Below, piece after piece: positions 7,883-44,782 of a stretch of DNA of 64,000 nt. This DNA comes from Pseudozyma flocculosa PF-1 (Eukaryota; Basidiomycota; Ustilaginomycetes; Ustilaginales; Ustilaginaceae). A program made the position numbers and the translations under genes. Position 1 is the stretch's first letter; each line of letters starts with the position of its first letter. The notes below the pieces were generated by a model. That model was not told the origin of the DNA. It saw only the letters and a list, made by a program, of their open reading frames with translations, and made no database searches. The DNA lies in contig NW_006920873.1 in NCBI RefSeq assembly GCF_000417875.1, positions 749,177 through 813,176 of the forward strand, in the 5' to 3' direction.

Positions 7883-8727
7883 CGCCGTGGCGCTCAAGGT
7901 GCTAATCGAGGCTGCCAACGAACAGCAGCGATCGCAGAAATTGTTCCGTTGCGTTTGGTGGAGCGGCGACTCTGGCGCAGTGTAGGGCGGCCTCTTTGGT
8001 GAGTGCGATGCAAGCAACGGCGGGTCGAGCAGTGCTGGGTGGCCGTGTCGTTGCTGGAAGCGGCAGAGGTGGTGATGGGGCAAACGAAAGCGACGAGTCA
8101 GACATTCCCTTTGGATTGGCTCGGGCGACAGGAGACGACGAGTGGAGGGCACGCACGGACGTGCCTCTGAGGGGGAAACTGCTGCAGCAGCAGCGGCAAT
8201 CCTACTGAGCAGCATGCTCAACAGCTTGCTCGTGGCGACTTGATCGCTGCTCAAGCCGCCTTGACACCATGTTGCAAGGTGTGAAGATGTGTGTGCAGCT
8301 GAAATGGCACTTGCAGCACTGCGGTAAAGCTGCAGCAAGTCGGCAGCCGGCACGGAGCCAGCGCGGGATCGCCGCAGCCCTTGCAAATGGAAACCGCTAG
8401 ACACAACCCATACTCACCAGCAAGCGTCTGGCCTGATTGATAGCGCAGGTAAGATTAAGCCAAGTCGGAAACAAGCACACCAGGTGTTGCCCTGTTGCCT
8501 ACTTTGCCCATCCACCGCCGGACGCTGGAACCGCCAGCGCCGCGCCAAGTCAAAATCACGCGCACAATCTGCAGGCCGATGAAAACGATGGCATTACTAC
8601 CGATGGTATGGAAATCAGGACAGAGCAGGAAGAAGGGGGTAGTCGAGCCCCTACGACAAAGAGGGGGCGGGAGTCGAGGGACGAAAAAAGGAAAGAGAGT
8701 GGGTGTGATGACGGGGCGATTGCACAT
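7883..8727. other. Intergenic, no gene seen
   Basis: This is the promoter side of the kinase gene and the 3' side of the transporter gene. The kinase frame stays open upstream to 8404, but the added residues look like translated promoter sequence and precede a good presequence start. I therefore do not extend the gene. No RNA gene or repeat of note is visible. Confidence 0.5.
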
Positions 8728-33142: not shown

Positions 33143-34334
33143 ATGGGACGCAAGGCCGAGGTGCAGCGCATGCTGCTCGAGCGGCTCATGGGGCCCGAGG
33201 CGTTTGGCAGCGCTACGGCCACGCTCCACTTCACCGATCCAAAGGTCTGCCGCAACTTTCTCTGCGGCACCTGCCCGCACGACCTCTTTAGCAACACAAA
33301 AGTCGACCTCGGGGTGTGCCCCAAGTCACACACGCCAAAGTACAAGGACGAGTACCAGGCGGCGCTGCTCAAGGGCGAGCGCTTCCCGCAGTTTGAAAAG
33401 GAGCACGAACAGAACATCTTTTCCTTCATCTCGGACATCGACCGCAAGATCAACGCCAACAAGCGCAGGCTCGAGCAGACGCCCGAGGAGATCGCACGCT
33501 TCGCCAACATGAACCGCGAGATCAGCGAGATCGAGGCCGCACTCGCCGCCGCCATGGCAGAGGTCGAGAGCCTCGGAGAGCAGGGCATGATTGACGAATC
33601 GCTCGCCGAGCTGCAGAAGGCAGAGGCGCTCAAGGAGGAAAAGGCGGCAAAGGAACGGGAGCTCCACCAGCTCCAGGAGAACAGCGGCGCCAGTGGACAT
33701 CAGAAGTTGCGCGTCTGCGACATCTGCGGTGCCTACCTCAGTATCCTCGACTCGGACAGGCGCCTGGCCGACCACTTCGGAGGAAAGGTGAGCACGCCGT
33801 CTCCGTACGACCGCCGTCTCTGCCCCTGCTTCGTCCCATTCACACGCCTCTCTCCCTGTTCATCCCTCTCACCTCTTCTCGTCTCGTCCGTCTTTTCGCC
33901 TCGCAGATGCACCTGGGCTACCTCAGATTGCGAGAAATGATCCGCGAGTTTGAAGACAGGAGGCGCGATCCCAACGCACCACCGATGGGCGCACCCGCCA
34001 AGATGCTCAACGGCACCAAGGCCTCGGCGTCCTCGACGACAGCGCCGATGGACCTCAGCAACGGTGGGCCGCTGGAGGAGGGCGAGACGAGGCCAGATCG
34101 CCAGCACGACATCGACCAGGAGCGGTACAAGCGCGACGAGCAGAGGCGCGAGAGCCGCCTGTCGAGGTGAGTCCTCGCCCTTCGTTGGCAGGTCGAAGGC
34201 TCCGACACGCGCTAACTTCTCCCATCTGCTCCCTCTGTCCTGACCTCCCCTTCTGTCTTGACTGCAGGGACGACCATCTCGATGGCAGGCGAGACGACGA
34301 AGGGCGGAAACGGGGCATCGCCTCCGTGTCTTAG
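33143..34334 (+). CDS. LUC7: Luc7 family U1 snRNP protein
   Basis: Luc7 helps U1 snRNP select 5' splice sites. Three exons: 33143-33787, 33907-34166 and 34268-34334, 323 residues. The start MGRKAEVQRMLLERLMGPEA is typical. The first zinc finger is CCCH (CRNFLCGTCPHDLF to CPKSH). A helical, Glu-rich coiled-coil region precedes the second, C2H2-like finger CDICGAYLSILDSDRRLADH, whose GGK ends exon 1 before MHLGY in exon 2. The tail is Arg/Asp/Glu-rich (QRRESRLSRDD), as in other family members. An open frame extends upstream to 32885 but has no family match, so 33143 is chosen. Confidence 0.95.
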
Positions 34335-34823
34335 CGAGCTTGCGCAAAGATTCCATCACCCCGCAATCCGAACCCCATCGTCCTTGCCTCTGTAACATTA
34401 GTATTCTCGATGTCTTTTGACTCCCAACAGGCGGTCTCTTCCCTGTGCGCTTCGTGCACCAGTGCTTCTGCTGTAGCCGCTCATGTGCAGCCAGGTCAAC
34501 TGCAGCAGCAGCAGCAGCAACTGCGCACACCGTTGCTGCTAGATGCAGCCGCTTGCAGCAGGCCTCCGTGCAAGGGCAGCTTGGGCCTGATCCTTGATGC
34601 ACACAGTGGGACAAGGCATAAACTGGTTTGAGGATGGTGCAAGCCCCAGAGGCCAGGGTTGGGCAGCACACAAATTTGGTCCGCAAGACTCTGCAAGCAT
34701 GTGTGTGAGCTTTTGATCTTGCTCTTACCCTCTTGCGCATCAGCAGCAGTGCCAGCATCCGCATCATCAGCAGCATCAGCAGCATCTGCAGCATCAGCAG
34801 CATCAGCAGCATCAGCAGTGCCC
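34335..34823. other. Low-GC flank with GCATCA repeats
   Basis: No gene is supported. The sequence becomes AT-richer than the neighbouring genes and contains CAGCAG runs at 34501-34521 and a GCATCAGCA microsatellite at 34735-34822. It is continuous in character with the disrupted antisense frame that follows. Confidence 0.5.
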
Positions 34824-35166
34824 CTACTCCAAGCCTTGTCCCATCTTTATCTCCCTTTCAGCCTTATTTGGCTGGTCTGAAGCAGTTTGGACCCGAACAT
34901 GCATGTGCTCCTTGTCAACCTGTGCCTTTGGGCTGCATGGGTGTGGATGAAGCAGAGCTGCTGGCCTCTTGTTCACAAAGACTGCATGGTCCTTGAGCTC
35001 CTGTTTGCACTTGAAGGTGATACCAAGAATTGCAGGGTTGCACTGTTTGGCCCTTGCAGCCTCAGATGCCAAGGGTGGGGCCTTTGGCAGTGCAGCTTGA
35101 AGCATCATGCAACCAGCTTGAGGGTCAACAATGGTGGTGCACAGGTCAGGGCCAAAGGCGCCCTGC
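34824..35166 (-). pseudogene. 3' part of an antisense frame split by the retrotransposon
   Basis: On the minus strand the reading frame from 35159 runs without a stop to TAG at 34824. It includes MMLQAALPKAPPLASEAARA and ends KMGQGLE. Skipping the whole element and one CCTGC copy joins it exactly in frame to the frame at 42290-42662: CTG CAG G then GC GCC TTT GGC. The composition differs from the surrounding genes, and I do not recognise the family. It may be an old mobile-element gene. Confidence 0.55.
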
Positions 35167-35293
35167 TGTCGCGCGCAGCTCGGTTCCGAGTCTTGGCGCG
35201 CGCGGCATCTTTTTCCCTCTCCGCGGCGCGCCTCCCTCCTTGATTGGAAACCATCACTTCACTCGCTCACTTCCTGCCCGCTACGCTGGCACA
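35167..35293 (+). repeat. 5' LTR (127 bp)
   Basis: Begins TG and ends CA and is identical base for base to the copy at 42163-42289. It contains the imperfect palindrome GCGCGCAGCTCGG..TTGGCGCGCGCGG near its start. It should hold the element promoter, but no TATA-like box is obvious. Confidence 0.95.
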
Positions 35294-35311
35294 TGGTGAC
35301 AAGAGTGTCGA
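35294..35311 (+). other. Candidate primer-binding site
   Basis: TGGTGACAAGAGTGTCGA lies directly after the LTR's terminal CA. The TGG start is what a tRNA 3' CCA end would pair with. The tRNA species was not identified, and I found no complementary stretch in the LTR that would suggest self-priming. Confidence 0.45.
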
Positions 35312-35398
35312 GCTCCTCTCTCTTCTTCTCACATTGTCTTCACCACCGAGCTCTGTACCGCACCGACGCCCACCGCATCCCCTTCCCACCTCGCCATC

Positions 35399-37168
35399 AT
35401 GCCACCCAAGACCAAAGCCGACGACGACGCCTCGCCATCCGCGGGCGGCGCCGTTTCGCCCCTGCCCGAGCCCTCCTCCTCCTCGTCGAACATCACCACC
35501 ACACCGCTGCCAGGCATACAGACACGCTCTGCGACCTCTGACGCGGGTAAGACGGTCACGATGTCCGACCTCATGGAAGCCCTCGGCAAGGCCCTGGCCA
35601 AACAGAAGACGGACATCACCAAGTCGGTGAATGCAGCCATCCGCCCGCTCTCCGAACGCCTGACCGCCCTCGAGACGGACTCCGACCCCGCGCACTCGCC
35701 CACTGTACCGAGCGCCGTCGAACGCCGTCAAGCTGCCCAGCGCGAACTCGAAGCTGAACGTCGCCGCTTCAACGAGTCCCGCCTCGAGATCCTGGCCCGC
35801 CACAACCTCCAGGCGACGGACGAGGAAACGGACGACCTCAATCCCCATGACCCCGCCACCATTCCCTATCGTGACAGGCCTCTTCCGCCGCACCTCAAGC
35901 CGGTCGGCCGCGACACCTCCAATCATGGCCGAGAAACAACCCCGGCACCAAGGTACAGCACCCGCTCGCCGGGCCCAGGCCTGGCCCGTCCGGAAAGGAC
36001 TGCATCCACGCCAGCGTTCCGCTACGACTCCGCGGCCGCGGCCGGCTACCCCAGCCGCTCAGCGCATTTCGTCGACGAGGACGACGACGACGAGATCGCT
36101 GCACAGCCGAGCATACAGCCGACCCGCGCCGCCTCAGCCTCGACCATCGCGCCCTCATCAGGCCGCAGGTTCAACGTCAAGGCCGAGCAGATCGGAACCT
36201 TCGACGGAGCGCCCGAGAACCTCGATTACTTTGTCAACCGCGTCGAGAGCCTCCTCGCGCACCACGACTACGACCCAGACTACGTCTTGGCCATCATCGA
36301 CGTGCTGCCGCTCTGCTTCAAAGACTCCGCGGCCGAATGGTTCCAGTACATGCCGATATCGCAGCGTTCCGGCATGCGGCTGGGCTGGTACCAGTGGAAG
36401 GACGCGCTTAGCAAGGCGTTCCGCCAGGACTACGACGCCGCCCGTCTACGTGCCAGCGAGCGCGCTTGGGACTGGCAGTCGGAGCCGGCCCCGCGCTACT
36501 ACTTCAACAAGCTCGCGCTGCTAAAGGCCGCCCACCCCGAGTGGCGAGATGCCGACCTCGTCTTCGAGCTCATGAACGGCCTGCCACCGACGCTGAAGTG
36601 CCTGATGCGCACCAAGATCGACTCCAACTCCACGCCGGAGGAATTCCTCATCCAGCTCCGCGCCCAAGAGAGCCCCTGGAAGGAAGCCGAGGCAGACCGG
36701 ATGGCGTTGAAGAAGCGTCAGCAGTCGACGCCACAGCAACTGGGGTCCGCCCCCTCTCAGCCCACGACGCCGAGACGATCACCGCCCTCGTCGCAGTCGT
36801 CCAACGCCTCCCCGTCGTCGGTCGCACGCCAGTCCATCATGCTCGACTACGACCCAAAGAACGTCTTTTACAAGAGCGTCGGAGGCAAGCAGACACGTCA
36901 CTACCGCCTCCCACAGTCTGGCCGCGAGGTGCAACTCAAGTGGCCGTGCAAGAGGTGCGGAGAAGATCACTTCGACTTCGAGCACGTCCAGCTCACGAGG
37001 CCCACCACGCCGGGAGAGCGAGCGGCCGCAGAGATCCGCGCGATGAAGGCATACGGATTCAACCTCCTCAGCGTAGACGACGACGAGGAAACGGAGCCCA
37101 GCACGAGTGACCACGACCTCACCGCGTCGGACGAGGGGGGCGACGAGACCGCGAAGTCTCTAAACTAG
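35399..37168 (+). CDS. gag: Gag polyprotein of the LTR retrotransposon
   Basis: A frame of 589 residues. The first 150 or so are Ser/Thr/Pro-rich with a helical stretch, followed by a Retrotrans_gag-like capsid domain at about residues 265-420 (ENLDYFVNRVESLLAHHDYD, SAAEWFQYMPISQRSGM, LVFELMNGLPPTLKCLM). A candidate nucleic-acid knuckle follows: PCKRCGEDHFDFEH, spaced C-x2-C-x3-H-x4-H. This differs from the usual C-x2-C-x4-H-x4-C. The C-terminus is acidic. The gag stop lies inside the open region of the pol frame, so Pol is probably made by frameshifting near 37135. Confidence 0.93.
   Translation: MPPKTKADDDASPSAGGAVSPLPEPSSSSSNITTTPLPGIQTRSATSDAGKTVTMSDLMEALGKALAKQKTDITKSVNAAIRPLSERLTALETDSDPAHSPTVPSAVERRQAAQRELEAERRRFNESRLEILARHNLQATDEETDDLNPHDPATIPYRDRPLPPHLKPVGRDTSNHGRETTPAPRYSTRSPGPGLARPERTASTPAFRYDSAAAAGYPSRSAHFVDEDDDDEIAAQPSIQPTRAASASTIAPSSGRRFNVKAEQIGTFDGAPENLDYFVNRVESLLAHHDYDPDYVLAIIDVLPLCFKDSAAEWFQYMPISQRSGMRLGWYQWKDALSKAFRQDYDAARLRASERAWDWQSEPAPRYYFNKLALLKAAHPEWRDADLVFELMNGLPPTLKCLMRTKIDSNSTPEEFLIQLRAQESPWKEAEADRMALKKRQQSTPQQLGSAPSQPTTPRRSPPSSQSSNASPSSVARQSIMLDYDPKNVFYKSVGGKQTRHYRLPQSGREVQLKWPCKRCGEDHFDFEHVQLTRPTTPGERAAAEIRAMKAYGFNLLSVDDDEETEPSTSDHDLTASDEGGDETAKSLN
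37135..37141 (+). promoter_or_regulatory. Candidate -1 ribosomal frameshift heptamer
   Basis: The sequence GGGGGGC reads G GGG GGC in the gag frame, which fits the X XXY YYZ slippery rule. It lies 27 nt before the gag stop. The pol frame, -1 relative to gag, is open from 37111 onward, so a slip here enters pol directly. A GC-rich downstream region could form the stimulatory structure, which was not modelled. Confidence 0.5.
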
Positions 37169-37242
37169 GCAGCGCCAAGCAGACGCCAGACGTCGACCGC
37201 AGGCCGGTCGACACGTCCGATGTCAACGACGCCAGGCAGACG

Positions 37243-40200
37243 ATGACCGTTGATCGCTGGTCGACCAACTCCTCGCCCGCCGACGACGTCGACGGACACA
37301 ACGACCCGATAGACGAGCCCGAAAGATCCACCAAGAACAAGTTCCGCACAGACGACAAGAACCAGAAGACACCACCACAGACTCGTCCCGCCCGCAGACG
37401 CGCCCTAAGCGCCCCGTACGTCCACAAAGAAAGACCAGCCTGGCTCGCCGCAGGCCACCGGAAGAGCGATCAACCCCAAGAACTCGTTAATAGGAACGGC
37501 TCGTACAAGCCGGAGCTCATCAGACGCCTTTCAAACTCTTCCCGCGCAAGACCCAGACCCTCAGCATTCCACATGGATCCGCAAGTTTCCAACCTCACAG
37601 TCGCCAGCCGCCACAAAGGTCTCGACGCTACCGCACCTGTCATCGAGGTCCCTCCCCCCGTCGACACGGGCCGAGGCCGCGCCCACGAGCGACATCTACC
37701 CCTCACCGCATACGTCGCCCTGGACAACGGCGACGCACAACTTTCACTCCTCGATACCGGAGCGAACCTCTCCGTCATCGACGAGGCACTTGCACACAAG
37801 CTCGGCCTGGCGCCCTTCAACGGCCCGACGCTCCACATCGACGGCGTCGGCTCCGGACACACGTCAGGCTGGGTGACCTCTCGGTTGATCATTCCCGCTA
37901 CAAGGCACGGACGACCGGTGCAACTGGCGACCGAGGCCGACTTCCACGTCCTCCCCGACTTCGGCCCGGGCCTTTGTCTCGGTCTAGACGTAGTCACCGC
38001 CCTGAATGCAGTGCTCGACGTCCCTTCCGCCTCCGCAGAGGCGTTCGGCGCAACGTTCCCTATCTTCGACACAAAAGGGAGGCCGCTGACCTCGAAACGC
38101 GCCGGACGTGCTCTGACGGCGAAGAGCAACACGACCATTCCACCGCGATGTCACGCGTGGGTTCCTTTCGACGCCCATCTCCGGCCGGCGACCGACTACG
38201 TCATCCAGAGCAGTGTGTGGACCGACGCCGAGGAGACCACCAACCTCGCCCTCCCGTCGGCCGTGATCGACGACGTAACCGTCGCTATCATGGTAACCAA
38301 CTTCGGCGACGACCCCGTCACGATCAGGAGCAACACACGCCTCGGCACCGCCTTGCCCCTCGTCGCCGGCGGCGCAGGAGTCGGCGCAGGATCGTTCACC
38401 CTCCAGAGTCGCCAGACGCCCGACGGCTCCCCAAGCAGCTCGGCCACGTGCCACACCAGCACTGGGGGTCCCGCACCTAGCGGCGGTGTAGGCGAGACGC
38501 CCGATGAACAAGAAGGGAGATCGCCTCCAACCGACTCCGCAACAGATGACGCACCAGAGGAGGAAGTCATGGCGGACCCCAGCATCGCGCCAACGCCGAT
38601 CGACTTTGCGGAGGATCCCCTCGCCAGACTCGCACCCGATCCGACGGCGACGCAGAAGATCGATGGCGCGTTCAACGTTGGTCTCAACCAGGATGGCAAA
38701 CCGCATCCAGAGATCGTCAGCCTGCTCAGACGCCACCGCCAAGCCTTCTCGCTCGACGGCAGACCAGGTCGCGTCACGCTGCCGGGCACCGCGATGCCGA
38801 TACCACTGCTCGAAGGCAAGGAGATAACGCCAGAAGCCCCAAGGCGCTCCAGCCCCGAGAAGCGCAAGATAGAGAGCGCGCAGATCGAGCAGCTACGCGA
38901 CTGGGATGTGATCGAACCGTCCACCTCACCCGCATCCTTCCCAGTCCTACTCGTAAAGCAAGGCGCCAAATGGAGATTCTGCGTCGACTACCGGGGACTC
39001 AACAAGGTGTCCAAAGACGACCGGTACCCCCTGCCGCGCATCGACGACATCTTCGAAGCGCTCGCCGGCAACAGATGGTTCTCCGGCCTGGACGCCATCC
39101 GCGGATACCATCAGCTCGACATCGAGGAGGCCGACAGGTGGAAAACGGCCTTCATCTGCTCCGCTGGCCTTTTCCAGTACAAACGCGTCCCCTTCGGCCT
39201 CAAAGGCGCGCCCGCGTGGTTCCAACGCTTCATGGATCGGATCCTCGGAAGGCTACGATGGATCCACGCCGTCGTCTACCTCGATGACGTCGTCGTCTTC
39301 TCCAAGACGATCGAACAGCACGTCGAAGCCCTGGACACCCTCCTCACCGCGGCGACGCAAGCCGGCCTCCGCTTCTCGCCTGACAAGTGCCACTTCGGCC
39401 TCCGCTCGCTCGCGCTCCTCGGGCGACAACTGTCCAGCGCCGGCGTGTCAGTGCAGCAAAGGAAGACGCAGGCGGTGCGGGACATCGCAGCTCCGAAGAC
39501 GCTTCAGGACCTCTATCACGTCCTAGGGCTCTTCAACTACTACCGCGAGTTCATACCGAGGTACGCCCAGCGCGCCCTACCGATGACGCGACTGCTCAAA
39601 GGGCACCGGTACAAGCGGGTGGGCGACAGAGACAAGAAGTGGTCACTGGTCGACGAGCACGATCAGCGCACGACGGCCTCACGCGTGGCTCTACAGTGGG
39701 GTCCCGAACAGCAAGCCGCCCTCGATGACCTAAAGGACGCTCTGAGCTCGCCACCAACCCTCGCCTTCCCCGACTACACGCGACCTTTCATCCTCTACAC
39801 CGACGCCTCTCAAACAGCGTTCGCAGCCGCCCTCCATCAGGACACCACCGCCCAGGCTTTTCCGCTGTCGTCAATCACCCCTGCCACCACCGTGCCACTA
39901 TCGCTCGAGCGCATCCGACAGGGCCAAGCGAGCGACACCGCTATACGCGCCATCCGGGCTCGCCTACAGGGTCGGTTCGACTCAGACACGCCGAGCGCGA
40001 GCGACGACGAGGACACCGACAGCGAGACAGACACGTCAGACGCAGTCGAAGCACCAACTGTCCTGACCGGGGGAGGCGGAAGCGCGCCACCCACGGCTCA
40101 ACTCGAGGCACCGCACGATGAGGAACACCCCGCGCCCGACACGACTCCGACAACGTCAGGCCGCAGCCGACCACGACCAGACGATCACTTCGCCCTCCAA

Positions 40201-41991
40201 GATGGCCTGGTAGTCTACGTCGGACCGCATCGCACTCAGCGCAAGGTCTACCTTCCGTCAGCACTGCTCCACGACGCCCTTGCTGCGGCGCACGACCAAG
40301 GACATTTCGGTCTAGCGAAAACGCTCCCCAGACTCGACGGACTCTACTACCCTCGACTCGCCACGCTTCTCCGCACCTACATCGACAACTGTCCCCCGTG
40401 CTTGCGCACGAAAGCCAAGCCCCGGACCGGCCAGCTTTCCCTCGAGCGCACCGACGAGGCGTGCAAGCACGCGTTCCACTCGCTATCGATGGATCTCGTC
40501 CTCGGGCTGCCCGTCATCGACGGCCTGGACGCCATCCTCGTAATCGTCGATATGTTCTCCAAAACGCTGCTGACCGCCGCGTGTACCTCTACGATCACGG
40601 CGGACGGCGTCTACCGCCTCTTCTCTCGCCTCGTCCTACGGCGCGGGTGGAACCCCAAAGTCATCGTCACCGACTCCGACACCAGGTTCATCGGCGAATA
40701 CGGTCGAGCATTCGCCGCCCGCATCGGCGCCGTCCTCCAACCATCGGCGCCTTACCACCAGCAAGCCAACCCCGTCGAACGACACATCCAAACGCTCAAA
40801 CGCGTCCTGCGCACCCTCGCTCTGCAGTCGACGGGCACCTGGGTGGACGATCTCGACGTGGCAGAGCCGGCGATCAACGCCACTCCCTCGCTAGCCACCG
40901 GCTTCTCGCCGGACGACCTACTCTACATCCACAAGCCCAACAGCGTCGAGCTTCCGTCAACCGCAGCCCTTGACGACCGACGCGTCGAGGCACGCGCGAG
41001 AGTCGAGGAGGCCGTACGGAACCTTCTCTCGTCACAGACCGCCGCCAAGGAACGCTTCGATCGTCGCCACCAACCCCTGCCCGACCTCAGAGAGGGCGAC
41101 AGAGTCTTCATACGTCTGAAGGACAGACCCGTCCCGATGGCAGGCACCGAACACCGCCTAGACCCCACCCTTCTCGGACCCTTCCCGGTCGAACAGGTCC
41201 TCTCCGACCACAGAGTCCGACTCGCCCTACCTCCGACTCTACGACTCGATCCACACTTCGACCGTTCCCACCTTCAACCATGCCCGCGGGACCCGGATCC
41301 CTTTGGCAGACCGCTCGAGAGCTCGGCCGTCGACAACAGCGAAGATGACGCTTCCGACACCCCCAGCCCAGCGCCACAATGGGAGCTCGAACGAATCGTC
41401 GGAACGAGAAACTACCGAGGCTACAAGCAGTATCGAGTCCTGTGGAAGAACGACCCGATGCCGACGTGGGAGTTCGAGGATGACCTGCGTGAGGACAAGT
41501 GCGATCAAGCCATCTCCGACTTCCACGCCAACCTTGACGCCCTCCCAGCGCGACGGCGCAAGCGCAACGCCCGTCAAGCCTACACCCTTGTCGCCCAAGA
41601 TCTCGCCGTGTCCGACGCCGAGCTTTTGATCCGCCACGATCAGGCGCACCCCAGCCCCACGGAGCGCCCGATCGCGTTCATCTCCACACCCACCTCCGCG
41701 TCCGAGTCCAAACTCCTTGGCCTCGAACTCGAGATGTCCTGCTTGGCGTGGGCGCTGCACCAACTCCGCCATTACCTCGAGGGCGCCCCGGAGATCATCG
41801 TCGTAACGGACCACGCTCCTCTCGGCGCCGTCCTCAAAGCGTCCTCCAAGTCTCGCCGCCTCTTCACACCCCGCATCGAGCGCCTACGCACATACCTCCT
41901 TCCGTTCCTCGACTCACTCTCCTTCGTCCATCGCGCTGGCAAGGCCCACGGCAACGTCGACGCCCTGTCCCGTCTGCCACACTCATCCTAG
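37243..41991 (+). CDS. pol: Pol polyprotein: protease, RT, split RNase H, integrase, chromodomain
   Basis: A frame of 1582 residues from the first ATG, and open from 37111 if entered by frameshift. Order: aspartic protease (LLDTGANLSV, D171); reverse transcriptase with YLDDVVVF (D681, D682); one RNase H strand, LYTDASQTAFAAALHQ (D854); an acidic linker; integrase with HHCC zinc-binding motif (HDQGHFG, CPPC) and catalytic D1084, D1144, E1179; a GPY/F-like module (LLGPFPVEQV); a chromodomain from W1380 (WELERIVGTRNYRGYKQYRV). The remainder of RNase H lies at the C-terminus (ELEMSCLAWALHQLRHYLEG with E1497, TDHAPLG with D1523, NVDALSR with D1573). In ordinary Ty3/Gypsy elements these RNase H parts are contiguous and precede integrase. 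No stops interrupt it. Confidence 0.95.
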   Translation: MTVDRWSTNSSPADDVDGHNDPIDEPERSTKNKFRTDDKNQKTPPQTRPARRRALSAPYVHKERPAWLAAGHRKSDQPQELVNRNGSYKPELIRRLSNSSRARPRPSAFHMDPQVSNLTVASRHKGLDATAPVIEVPPPVDTGRGRAHERHLPLTAYVALDNGDAQLSLLDTGANLSVIDEALAHKLGLAPFNGPTLHIDGVGSGHTSGWVTSRLIIPATRHGRPVQLATEADFHVLPDFGPGLCLGLDVVTALNAVLDVPSASAEAFGATFPIFDTKGRPLTSKRAGRALTAKSNTTIPPRCHAWVPFDAHLRPATDYVIQSSVWTDAEETTNLALPSAVIDDVTVAIMVTNFGDDPVTIRSNTRLGTALPLVAGGAGVGAGSFTLQSRQTPDGSPSSSATCHTSTGGPAPSGGVGETPDEQEGRSPPTDSATDDAPEEEVMADPSIAPTPIDFAEDPLARLAPDPTATQKIDGAFNVGLNQDGKPHPEIVSLLRRHRQAFSLDGRPGRVTLPGTAMPIPLLEGKEITPEAPRRSSPEKRKIESAQIEQLRDWDVIEPSTSPASFPVLLVKQGAKWRFCVDYRGLNKVSKDDRYPLPRIDDIFEALAGNRWFSGLDAIRGYHQLDIEEADRWKTAFICSAGLFQYKRVPFGLKGAPAWFQRFMDRILGRLRWIHAVVYLDDVVVFSKTIEQHVEALDTLLTAATQAGLRFSPDKCHFGLRSLALLGRQLSSAGVSVQQRKTQAVRDIAAPKTLQDLYHVLGLFNYYREFIPRYAQRALPMTRLLKGHRYKRVGDRDKKWSLVDEHDQRTTASRVALQWGPEQQAALDDLKDALSSPPTLAFPDYTRPFILYTDASQTAFAAALHQDTTAQAFPLSSITPATTVPLSLERIRQGQASDTAIRAIRARLQGRFDSDTPSASDDEDTDSETDTSDAVEAPTVLTGGGGSAPPTAQLEAPHDEEHPAPDTTPTTSGRSRPRPDDHFALQDGLVVYVGPHRTQRKVYLPSALLHDALAAAHDQGHFGLAKTLPRLDGLYYPRLATLLRTYIDNCPPCLRTKAKPRTGQLSLERTDEACKHAFHSLSMDLVLGLPVIDGLDAILVIVDMFSKTLLTAACTSTITADGVYRLFSRLVLRRGWNPKVIVTDSDTRFIGEYGRAFAARIGAVLQPSAPYHQQANPVERHIQTLKRVLRTLALQSTGTWVDDLDVAEPAINATPSLATGFSPDDLLYIHKPNSVELPSTAALDDRRVEARARVEEAVRNLLSSQTAAKERFDRRHQPLPDLREGDRVFIRLKDRPVPMAGTEHRLDPTLLGPFPVEQVLSDHRVRLALPPTLRLDPHFDRSHLQPCPRDPDPFGRPLESSAVDNSEDDASDTPSPAPQWELERIVGTRNYRGYKQYRVLWKNDPMPTWEFEDDLREDKCDQAISDFHANLDALPARRRKRNARQAYTLVAQDLAVSDAELLIRHDQAHPSPTERPIAFISTPTSASESKLLGLELEMSCLAWALHQLRHYLEGAPEIIVVTDHAPLGAVLKASSKSRRLFTPRIERLRTYLLPFLDSLSFVHRAGKAHGNVDALSRLPHSS

Positions 41992-42144
41992 CCCAACCAC
42001 ACCCAACGTCTTCCACACAGCCCCGTCGCATGTCCGCCCCTTCATTCCCGTCTCACGCACATACCCTCCACTCTTCACGCCGCCTCCTGTAGTACCACCA
42101 CCTCTTCGCGCCCATTCCTGTACCGTAGTCCAGACGCCCGCATC

Positions 42145-42162
42145 GAAGGGGGGAGGGGGGGA
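42145..42162 (+). other. Polypurine tract
   Basis: GAAGGGGGGAGGGGGGGA directly abuts the 3' LTR start TGTC. This is the expected primer for plus-strand DNA synthesis in LTR elements. Confidence 0.88.
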
Positions 42163-42289
42163 TGTCGCGCGCAGCTCGGTTCCGAGTCTTGGCGCGCGCG
42201 GCATCTTTTTCCCTCTCCGCGGCGCGCCTCCCTCCTTGATTGGAAACCATCACTTCACTCGCTCACTTCCTGCCCGCTACGCTGGCACA
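42163..42289 (+). repeat. 3' LTR (127 bp)
   Basis: Identical to 35167-35293, with TG and CA termini, and followed by the CCTGC target duplication. The identity implies insertion too recent for LTR divergence, or gene conversion. Confidence 0.95.
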
Positions 42290-43272
42290 CCTGCAGGATG
42301 CCGAGGAGGACAATGATAGCAGCAAGGTCCTTGATGAGCCAGCCGTCCTTGCAGCTGGGAATTGCAATGCGCGCAGGCTGCTCTTCACCGATGCAGTTGC
42401 ATAGCTTGCAGCCCGTTGCCTGACCCCAGACGAGGAAGGCTGGGTTGCTGTCGTTGTTGTATCCTGTAAGCTGGATTGTCAGCTGACGCCAGCGCAGGAA
42501 TGGCGCATTGTCCTGTGCCTTGCCCTCCTCCATCAGCCACAATGGCAGGCAGGTGCCCTGGCAGTCAAGGCTGAGGAGGACGGCGCTGGATGAGAGGACC
42601 GAGAGGGGTGGGCAAAAGACGTTTGCGGCCATGCCCCTTAGGGCTCGCCCACAGCGCCGCAAGGACAGCGTTGATCTGGGTATCGGTCACCCAAAACTTC
42701 TCCAGCACTCCGACGGGATACCAGCGTAGCGCACACGCATTGAAACAAATAATGGGTTGGATTAACTTGAGCATGTCAGGTGCAATAAGCTGGCCTTGTT
42801 CCTCAAACCACGTGGCAAGGGAGTGGGTGCTGTGGAGGATGGTGGCAAGCGCCAGGGGCGTTGCATCGTTGCCCAGCGGCAGGAGAGAGCGCACTGCATT
42901 GGCCTTGTGTTCTGGAAGCTCCTCTGTATTGGCCCCATCATTGTCGGCTGCTGTTTGCTTTGGAAAATGACAGAAGGTATGCATCACTTCCTTATCCAGA
43001 TGCATTGCAGGAGGCATGCATATGCATTGGCTGCCAAGTCCGAAGCCGCAGTTGAGACCACTTACCAGGTTTGTGGGCCTGCATGCAGCCATCTGGACCC
43101 AGACCAGGGCATCAATAGCTCCATTGCCTTGTCTGCCTCTTTGATGGTTCCTGCTGCAAGCACCTTCTTGCTTGTTGTGCCACGCTAGCAGTCTGGCAGC
43201 CTCTTCTGCAGACATGCCCATCTCAGCAGCCACCTCAATCTCATCTTTTGCAATGTTCCCTTTGAGTCCCAT
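42290..43272 (-). pseudogene. 5' part of the antisense frame split by the retrotransposon
   Basis: The minus-strand frame from 43272 (MGLKGNIAKDEIEVAAEMGM) reads to about 42632. There a GGGG run appears to carry one extra base and shifts into the frame that continues GMAANVFCPPLSVLSSS to 42290. It then resumes at 35161 beyond the element. The predicted product is Cys- and His-containing (CICMPPAMHLDKEVMHTFCH, GCKLCNCIGEE) with no family I recognise. The lower GC content and simple-repeat flanks suggest an old transposable-element or horizontally acquired gene, now broken twice. Confidence 0.5.
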
Positions 43273-43329
43273 AGTGTTGCACAGGTGGTGGCAGAGGGTG
43301 TGCAGAGCATGTCACTCCAATTGCCTTGG

Positions 43330-43463
43330 TGTGGGCCTGATGCCTTAGCCACTGCTGATGCTGTTGCTGAAGCTGATGCCACTGCTGATGCTGATGCTGA
43401 TGCTGATGCTGATGCTGATGCTGATGCTGATGCCAGAGCCACTGATGATGCTGATGCCTTCAT
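43330..43463. repeat. GCTGAT microsatellite
   Basis: Imperfect (GCTGAT)n / (GATGCT)n with a core at 43380-43430. A related GCATCA repeat lies on the other side of the retrotransposon at 34735-34822. The two presumably flanked the split antisense frame before the insertion. Confidence 0.8.
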
Positions 43464-43793
43464 CTTTTCTTGCAGCAGGGGGGTCCTGCATCTCTCGCCT
43501 GCCTCAGCGCGTCTGTAGCACCCAGCCAGGTGGAGGTTGAGGTGCGAGAAGATGGGAGCGCACAGAAGCCTTTTGCTGCCAAGTCCAACCTCGCGCCTTC
43601 CACCGCCGTCCTCGCCATCATCACCATCATCTCGACACCTCTTTTCTTCAAAGACCTAGGACCTCGGCGACGGGTTTGCGGCACCAACTGAACAGTCTAC
43701 TCGGATCGCACTGCGGCAGGCAACCAGCGTCCCCTGTCCAGAGCGAGGCACGACATCACCTGAGCGTTCCGAGGTCGCGAGCCCGCAAGCAGC
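43464..43793. other. Promoter region of the Dib1 homologue
   Basis: No gene is seen. The composition returns to that of the gene-rich part of the window, and the region directly precedes the Dib1 start. Confidence 0.4.
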
Positions 43794-44782
43794 ATGTCGT
43801 ACCTGCTTCCTCACTTGCCCTCCGGTGAGCATTCGATGAGCTGTGGCGATGTCCGCGCGCATGTCGGCGCATTCACTGATCACCCCGATCCCCCCCTTCG
43901 CCATCTTCATCCGCCGCAACCGCAGGCTGGCACGTCGACCAGGCGATCCTGTCGGAAGAGGACCGGGTGGTCGTCATCCGCTTTGGCCACGACCACGTGA
44001 GGCGCCGCGCGATCTTCTACCCGGGACCGTGCGATGGCCGTCTGAAGCGAGTGCTGACGTTCAGATCTCGTCTGCTCCCTTGACGCTCCGCAGGACCCGG
44101 TGTGCATGCAGATGGACGAGACACTGTACAAGATCTCGACGGCGGTGCAGAACTTCGCCGTCATCTACCTGGTCGACATTACGCAGGTGCCAGACTTCAA
44201 CAAGGTGAGCATGCGGGCGCATCTTGGCGGGCCATTGGCAATGGGGCTCCAACAGAATACCGCGGCGACGAGAGGGGGCGGCTACTGACCGCCTACCGAC
44301 GACCGGCGAGTGCGGCGCTCCTCCAGATGTACGAGCTGTACGACCCCTGCGCCGTCATGTTCTTCTACCGCAACAAGCACATCATGATCGACCTCGGGAC
44401 GGGCAACAACAACAAGATGTGAGCAGTCCCGTGCCCGTTGGGGATGTCGAAGCGCGCTGGGAGAGCTAACCCGTATCAACTCCTCGACCTGCCTCTGGCC
44501 GTTGTCATACTCGACCCCGCCCTGGCAGCAACTGGGCCATGACGGACAAGCAAGAGCTGATCGACATTGTCGAGGTCGTTTATCGCGGTGCGAGCAAGGG
44601 TCGCGGTCTGGTCGTCAGCCCCCGAGGTGAGCATCGTGCGCGGTGGCGTGCCATGTCTGCCCGTCGTCTCGTCATGCCGCTTCGATGGCATCGCTGACAC
44701 TGCTGGCCAACCGCTATATCCGCCTGTGCTGCTGGTTTCCTGTCGCCGCTCGTCAGACTACTCGACAAGGCAAAAGTACTGA
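43794..44782 (+). CDS. DIB1: Dib1 / TXNL4A U5 snRNP thioredoxin-fold protein
   Basis: Dib1 is part of U4/U6.U5 tri-snRNP and blocks premature spliceosome activation. Six exons: 43794-43824, 43926-43996, 44094-44204, 44327-44418, 44529-44626 and 44757-44782. They encode 142 residues, the usual length. Near-invariant family stretches are present: MSYLLPHLPSG, WHVDQAILSEEDRVVVIRFG, NFAVIYLVDITQVPDFNK, RNKHIMIDLGTGNNNKINWA and GRGLVVSPRDYST. The usual HDWDP is read here as HDHDP across a splice, with His replacing Trp. Five introns in so short a gene illustrate the intron density of the genome. Confidence 0.97.

Follow-up and report, generated by a model that had tools for sequence, protein, structure and literature searches.

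RNase H sequences on either side of integrase in a Ty3/Gypsy element of Pseudozyma flocculosa

The 64,000-nucleotide stretch of Pseudozyma flocculosa PF-1 analyzed here (the window; contig NW_006920873.1, forward-strand positions 749,177 to 813,176) carries a complete long terminal repeat (LTR) retrotransposon at window positions 35167-42289, with two identical LTRs and the open reading frames (ORFs) gag and pol. LTRs of the TG...CA form, a short target-site duplication (TSD), a primer-binding site and a polypurine tract are all present (Table 1), and the identical LTRs together with the duplicated CCTGC bear out the claim of an earlier note on this DNA that the element was recently mobile. 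The gag and pol frames are separate; with pol open from 37111 onward and gag ending at 37168, the two overlap (37111-37168). By the similarity of its reverse transcriptase (RT), rather than by its place in an RT tree, the element is Ty3/Gypsy: RVT_1 is matched at E 1.3e-32, and the nearest solved structure by sequence is the Ty3 RT 4ol8 (E 9.2e-57).

Table 1. Features of the retrotransposon, in window coordinates; bit scores are given with the Pfam cut-off where a match falls below it.
Feature	Positions	Strand	Basis
Left TSD, CCTGC	35162-35166		Sequence reading; same as 42290-42294
5' LTR, 127 bp, TG...CA	35167-35293	+	100% identity with 42163-42289
Putative primer-binding site, TGGTGACAAGAG	35294-35305	+	Adjoins LTR; identical 12 bases after the LTR of the contig C10 element
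gag ORF, 589 residues	35399-37168	+	ORF; 0 Pfam families
Six-G run in gag/pol overlap	37135-37140	+	Possible -1 frameshift site
pol ORF, 1582 residues, intact	37243-41991	+	Single ORF
Aspartic protease motif LLDTGAN	37747-37767	+	Asp_protease_2, E 2.8e-4, 22.0 bits, cut-off 24.3
RT core, RVT_1	38956-39423	+	pol 572-727, Pfam E 1.3e-32
First piece of RNase H, comprising strands 1-2 with LYTDAS and AFAAALHQ; D854 codon 39802-39804	39772-39849	+	PF17917 1-26; PF17919 1-51 (from pol 819)
Acidic variable linker, RNase H first piece to integrase	39850-40254	+	Low identity to C10
Integrase zinc-binding domain H2C2	40255-40416	+	pol 1005-1058, Pfam E 1.1e-8
Integrase core rve	40477-40758	+	pol 1079-1172, E 5.5e-6, 27.0 bits, cut-off 32.6; C10 copy above cut-off
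Integrase C-terminal SH3, Tf2-1 type (SH3_Tf2-1)	41095-41283	+	pol 1285-1347, 27.4 bits, cut-off 30; C10 copy above cut-off
Chromodomain-like segment	41380-41526	+	PF00385, E 5e-4, 20.4 bits, cut-off 25.1
Linker ahead of second RNase H piece	41527-41643	+	Little or no sharing with C10
Second piece of RNase H, from strand 3 through the last helix; E1497 (41731-41733), D1523 (41809-41811), D1573 (41959-41961)	41644-41988	+	PF17917 23-95; Pol ends here
Polypurine tract	42146-42162	+	Adjoins right LTR
3' LTR	42163-42289	+	100% identity with 5' LTR
Right TSD, CCTGC	42290-42294		Sequence reading

In Ty3/Gypsy elements, Ty3 and the fungal chromoviruses among them, RNase H is contiguous and lies ahead of integrase. 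The window element shares with these the RT, the protease motif, the H2C2-integrase-SH3 series, a chromodomain-like segment behind integrase, the LTRs and the short TSD. In contrast, its RNase H is interrupted by the linker, integrase, SH3 and the chromodomain-like segment, and the second half ends Pol. An element that is Ty3/Gypsy by its RT therefore fails the usual contiguous protease-RT-RNase H-integrase order, with RNase H halves flanking the integrase-chromodomain region both here and in a second element on contig C10, as the earlier note had claimed for the window alone.

The Pfam scan of the whole Pol matches RT_RNaseH_2 at pol 819-869 over profile positions 1-51 of 100 only, and RT_RNaseH at pol 1468-1540 over positions 24-95 of 105 only (E 1.4e-18 over the full-length protein). 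In separate scans, 39700-40050 covers PF17917 positions 1-26 and 41500-41988 covers 23-95; the pieces are complementary on PF17919 as well (1-51 and 50-97). Each piece is thus a different part of one profile, and no second complete RNase H is found in the window Pol by Pfam. As in type I RNase H, the acidic residues come in D-E-D-D order (D854, E1497, D1523 and D1573), the first of them falling on the TDAS motif when Pol is aligned with the Ty3 RT. All four lie where the earlier note had placed them, the last three in a piece behind the chromodomain, and D854 is separated from E1497 by 643 residues, close to the proposed 640. The piece bearing D854 does remain behind RT; it comprises strands 1 and 2 (LYTDAS and AFAAALHQ), however, and not strand 1 only.

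Several intervening domains are weak in the window (rve, SH3 and Chromo fall below their cut-offs), yet the domain order is clear. For the chromodomain, the position given earlier holds, but the match is weaker than was stated: PF00385 is absent from the whole-Pol scan of the window and reaches E 5e-4 (20.4 bits against a cut-off of 25.1) with the segment alone; in C10, the whole Pol gives 0.02, below the cut-off, and the segment alone matches 0 families. Strands were assigned from the known topology of type I RNase H and from the order of elements in a structure model of the second piece (RNHc). As read from the sequence on this basis, the turn between strands 2 and 3 encloses the linker, integrase, SH3 and chromodomain; RNase H is thus interrupted, with no need for a permutation.

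When the 23-Mb genome is searched with RNHc protein, PF17917 or PF17919, the matches lead to contig C10, where the only further copy found of this lineage (piece L011) has the same split. This is a full element, with 124-bp LTRs with one difference (99% identity), a 5-bp duplication (ACTTG), a gag frame and a 1538-residue pol frame. It shares with the window element the 12-base primer-binding site (window 35294-35305; L011:1803-1814); a search of the genome with one tRNA-like pattern gave 0 matches for a primer tRNA to TGGTGACAAGAG. A G run lies inside the gag/pol overlap of both elements (6 G in window 37111-37168; 7 G in L011:3805-3823) and is a possible -1 frameshift site. Tandem repeats occur just downstream of the C10 element (L011:9110-9343).

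The two elements are well diverged, with pol identities of 63% in RT, 48% in H2C2 plus integrase and 35% in the N-terminal part, and with synonymous divergence (dS) near saturation. The C10 RNase H is nevertheless split at the same point, into profile positions 1-27 and 28-105, and counterparts of the four acidic residues align. The repeated finding of this order, in an element that is diverged and lies on a different contig, is a strong argument against a misassembly or a one-off rearrangement of the window copy, as are the intact Pol, the TSD and the LTRs; such an error is hardly credible, even though the window element is single copy. A genome search with DNA 39790-41991 returned that copy and two short matches of 72% identity on contig C10, and an LTR search of the whole genome returned the two window LTRs only, with no solo LTR. 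The outcomes named beforehand as speaking against a split domain were a contiguous RNase H in every other copy together with misassembly, or a second complete RNase H; what was found instead is a split C10 copy and a Pfam scan with no second RNase H.

Identity between the two elements falls after strand 2 (14/22 before, 6/34 after) and recovers at strand 3 (11/18). Successive linker blocks from pol 867 retain 6/34, 4/40, 7/40 and 6/24 residues, while D854 and strand 2 are kept. The ratio of nonsynonymous divergence (dN) to dS is about 0.27 for RNHc, 0.17 for the connection plus the first RNase H piece (RNHn), 0.28 for RT, 0.30 for integrase and 0.68 for the linker; with dS near saturation, the ranking alone is meaningful. 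The low ratios suggest that both halves behave more like a working enzyme than like debris.

The order of domains, the tiling of the two pieces on one profile, the four acidic residues and the common layout in a diverged second element are probably best explained by a chromovirus-like Ty3/Gypsy element with a discontinuous RNase H, which would be assembled from two Pol segments and active in that form. Strands 1 and 2 with the first catalytic Asp would remain fused to RT, while the remainder of the fold, from strand 3 through the last helix and including three of the four acidic residues, would form the Pol C-terminus. In the type I RNase H fold, the two ends at the strand 2-strand 3 turn are neighbours; thus, a single RNase H of the ordinary kind could form by closure of the two halves. 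One option is closure within the polyprotein with integrase looped out. Alternatively, the protease might free RT-RNHn and a piece bearing RNHc, which would then bind each other.

One point against this explanation comes from the C10 element. Its RNase H second half lies in another reading frame than the upstream pol, the change of frame falling between chromodomain and strand 3 (L011 about 8320-8380) in a stretch with an eight-C run. Either this copy is broken or mis-sequenced, or it frameshifts. The frame change weakens C10 as evidence of present function, not of a shared ancestral layout, which is still supported because RNHc of C10 is conserved and has an open frame that starts ahead of strand 3 and runs to the end of RNHc.

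The frame change also lends itself to the view that the split RNase H is nonfunctional or not needed and that the element moved with RNase H supplied in trans by another element or the host. The genome yields at least seven RT matches. Two (window and C10) belong to the split lineage and are both split; three belong to another Gypsy lineage (L012:3205-4719, L013:4698-6212 and L014:4591-6105) with RNase H contiguous behind RT; the remaining two, judged by eye, are a non-LTR-like element (C22) and a telomerase-like gene (C10:379101). RNase H precedes integrase in the usual order in L012 and L014, the two that were scanned with Pfam, and the L013 frame stops shortly after RNase H. An integrase search listed both split elements and two loci on contig C5 that belong to the other lineage, one with an internal TGA; C13 was not listed. 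The residence of this other lineage would provide a donor, and the single copy of the window element, with no solo LTR in the genome search, fits an element that depends on one. These residents may nonetheless be poor helpers: all three contiguous copies lack the fourth RNase H acid because AHGLSH or AHSLSH replaces the usual DALSR (window VDALSR), placing His where the fourth Asp would be. Retention of the four acidic residues in both split elements, and dN that is low relative to a nearly saturated dS in both halves, at rates like those of RT, also argue against a dispensable domain. Supply in trans is therefore unlikely, though it retains an appreciable chance.

The L012-L014 lineage has features of its own. 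Its RT carries WMDD where YxDD is usual, and about 40 residues occupy the strand 2-3 turn of its RNase H. It resembles the split elements in having extra residues in that turn and differs from them in the fourth Asp and, in L012 and L014, in the position of RNase H ahead of integrase.

A different reading, also raised in the earlier note, takes the C-terminal half as a complete RNase H with a new first strand recruited from upstream residues (YTLVAQD...) and the post-RT piece as a remnant of the connection. In the window, about 46 residues, with Asp residues among them, separate chromodomain and strand 3; the C10 stretch, however, is only about 27 codons and Pro-rich. Comparison of this region depends on the alignment, with 0/30 identical residues over pol 1443-1472 in one (A4) and 4/11 of the aligned C10 upstream residues matching in another (A6). 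No strand 1-2 match is found by Pfam in the upstream stretch. The RNHc model points both ways: several of its structural matches, Ty3 RT included, start at model residues 27-32, inside the upstream stretch, yet that stretch is modelled as helix or at low confidence (block predicted local distance difference test score, pLDDT, of 36-41), with a two-residue bridge only. Extra RNase H domains have been described in other Gypsy elements and in retroviruses in the part of PMC5348765 covered here, a precedent for such a gain, whereas the conservation of D854 and strand 2 is at odds with a mere remnant. A new first strand is accordingly improbable, and the balance leans, though not decisively, towards assembly from two Pol segments, given the short Pro-rich C10 stretch and the conserved D854 and strand 2.

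Both RNase H halves were modelled together, as the earlier note had proposed, from an eight-row alignment; the pLDDT of 45.9 speaks neither for nor against one fold, and the model carries no structural claim. A PDB sequence search with RNHc returned 68 chains with E no higher than 1, the best at 0.028, and the 60 of them that were listed are Aurora-type kinases; a search with a two-row RNHc profile gave no matches. No relatives were found in viral and prokaryotic contig collections, which says little about fungi.

Contiguity might also be restored at the RNA level, if the integrase region were spliced out of some transcripts to give a contiguous RT-RNase H while unspliced RNA gave integrase. 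The joining points are rightly placed for this, and splicing could bridge the C10 frame change. However, 0 donors of the form GT[AG]NG[TC] occur in window 39700-40200, and the one donor in C10 6649-7149 (GTATGC, L011:7030) lies about 240 bases beyond the break. Branch sites of the form CT[AG]A[CT] are likewise 0 in window 41450-41700 and C10 8200-8420, and an intron of about 1.8 kb is long for a fungus. Splicing thus has a very small chance of being the explanation.

Two further observations concern the window copy. Between protease and RT, pol 296-375 gives a weak dUTPase-like match (Herpes_ORF11, E 0.001, 18.4 bits, cut-off 27). Joining the flanks (33800-35166 to 42295-43800) gives, across the empty site, a minus-strand open frame of 244 codons from stop to stop; a gene may thus be interrupted by the insertion. 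No RNA families or tRNAs were found in the window. The phenylalanine ammonia-lyase of the genome occupies a single open frame and, among solved structures, is closest to 1y2m and 1t6j, both from Rhodosporidium, which makes a basidiomycete host likely.

Altered Pol order is known from Gmr1-like Ty3/Gypsy elements, in which integrase is upstream of RT (PMC3587641, in the part covered). The window element differs in that its integrase lies behind RT, and the covered part of the Gmr1 account makes no mention of a cut domain. RNase H has likewise been remodelled elsewhere in Gypsy evolution: in the dual-RNase H elements (plant Tat, oomycete Chronos and Archon, and retroviruses), the covered text of PMC5348765 describes gain of a second RNase H with a full catalytic set and loss of residues from the original. 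In contrast, the window element has one RNase H in two pieces that jointly retain the four acidic residues. The changes of order met in the limited literature covered thus involve whole domains (Gmr1) or added RNase H domains, and no description of an RNase H interrupted by integrase turned up in the open literature, fungal genomes and Repbase lying outside that search.

RT and RNase H of LTR elements are regarded, in the covered parts of PMC3248453 and PMC5348765, as one travelling and working unit. The chances are about even that the two elements represent a fungal LTR-element lineage whose RNase H is naturally split, its fold enclosing integrase and chromodomain and its activity requiring the ends of Pol to be joined. 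If so, a recently inserted lineage would show that two Pol segments can make up an RNase H, and the split might make the completion of reverse transcription dependent on the state of integrase. Order-based domain annotation can overlook or mislabel such elements. The lineage would also offer a natural system for asking whether RT, RNase H and integrase share one complex during reverse transcription.
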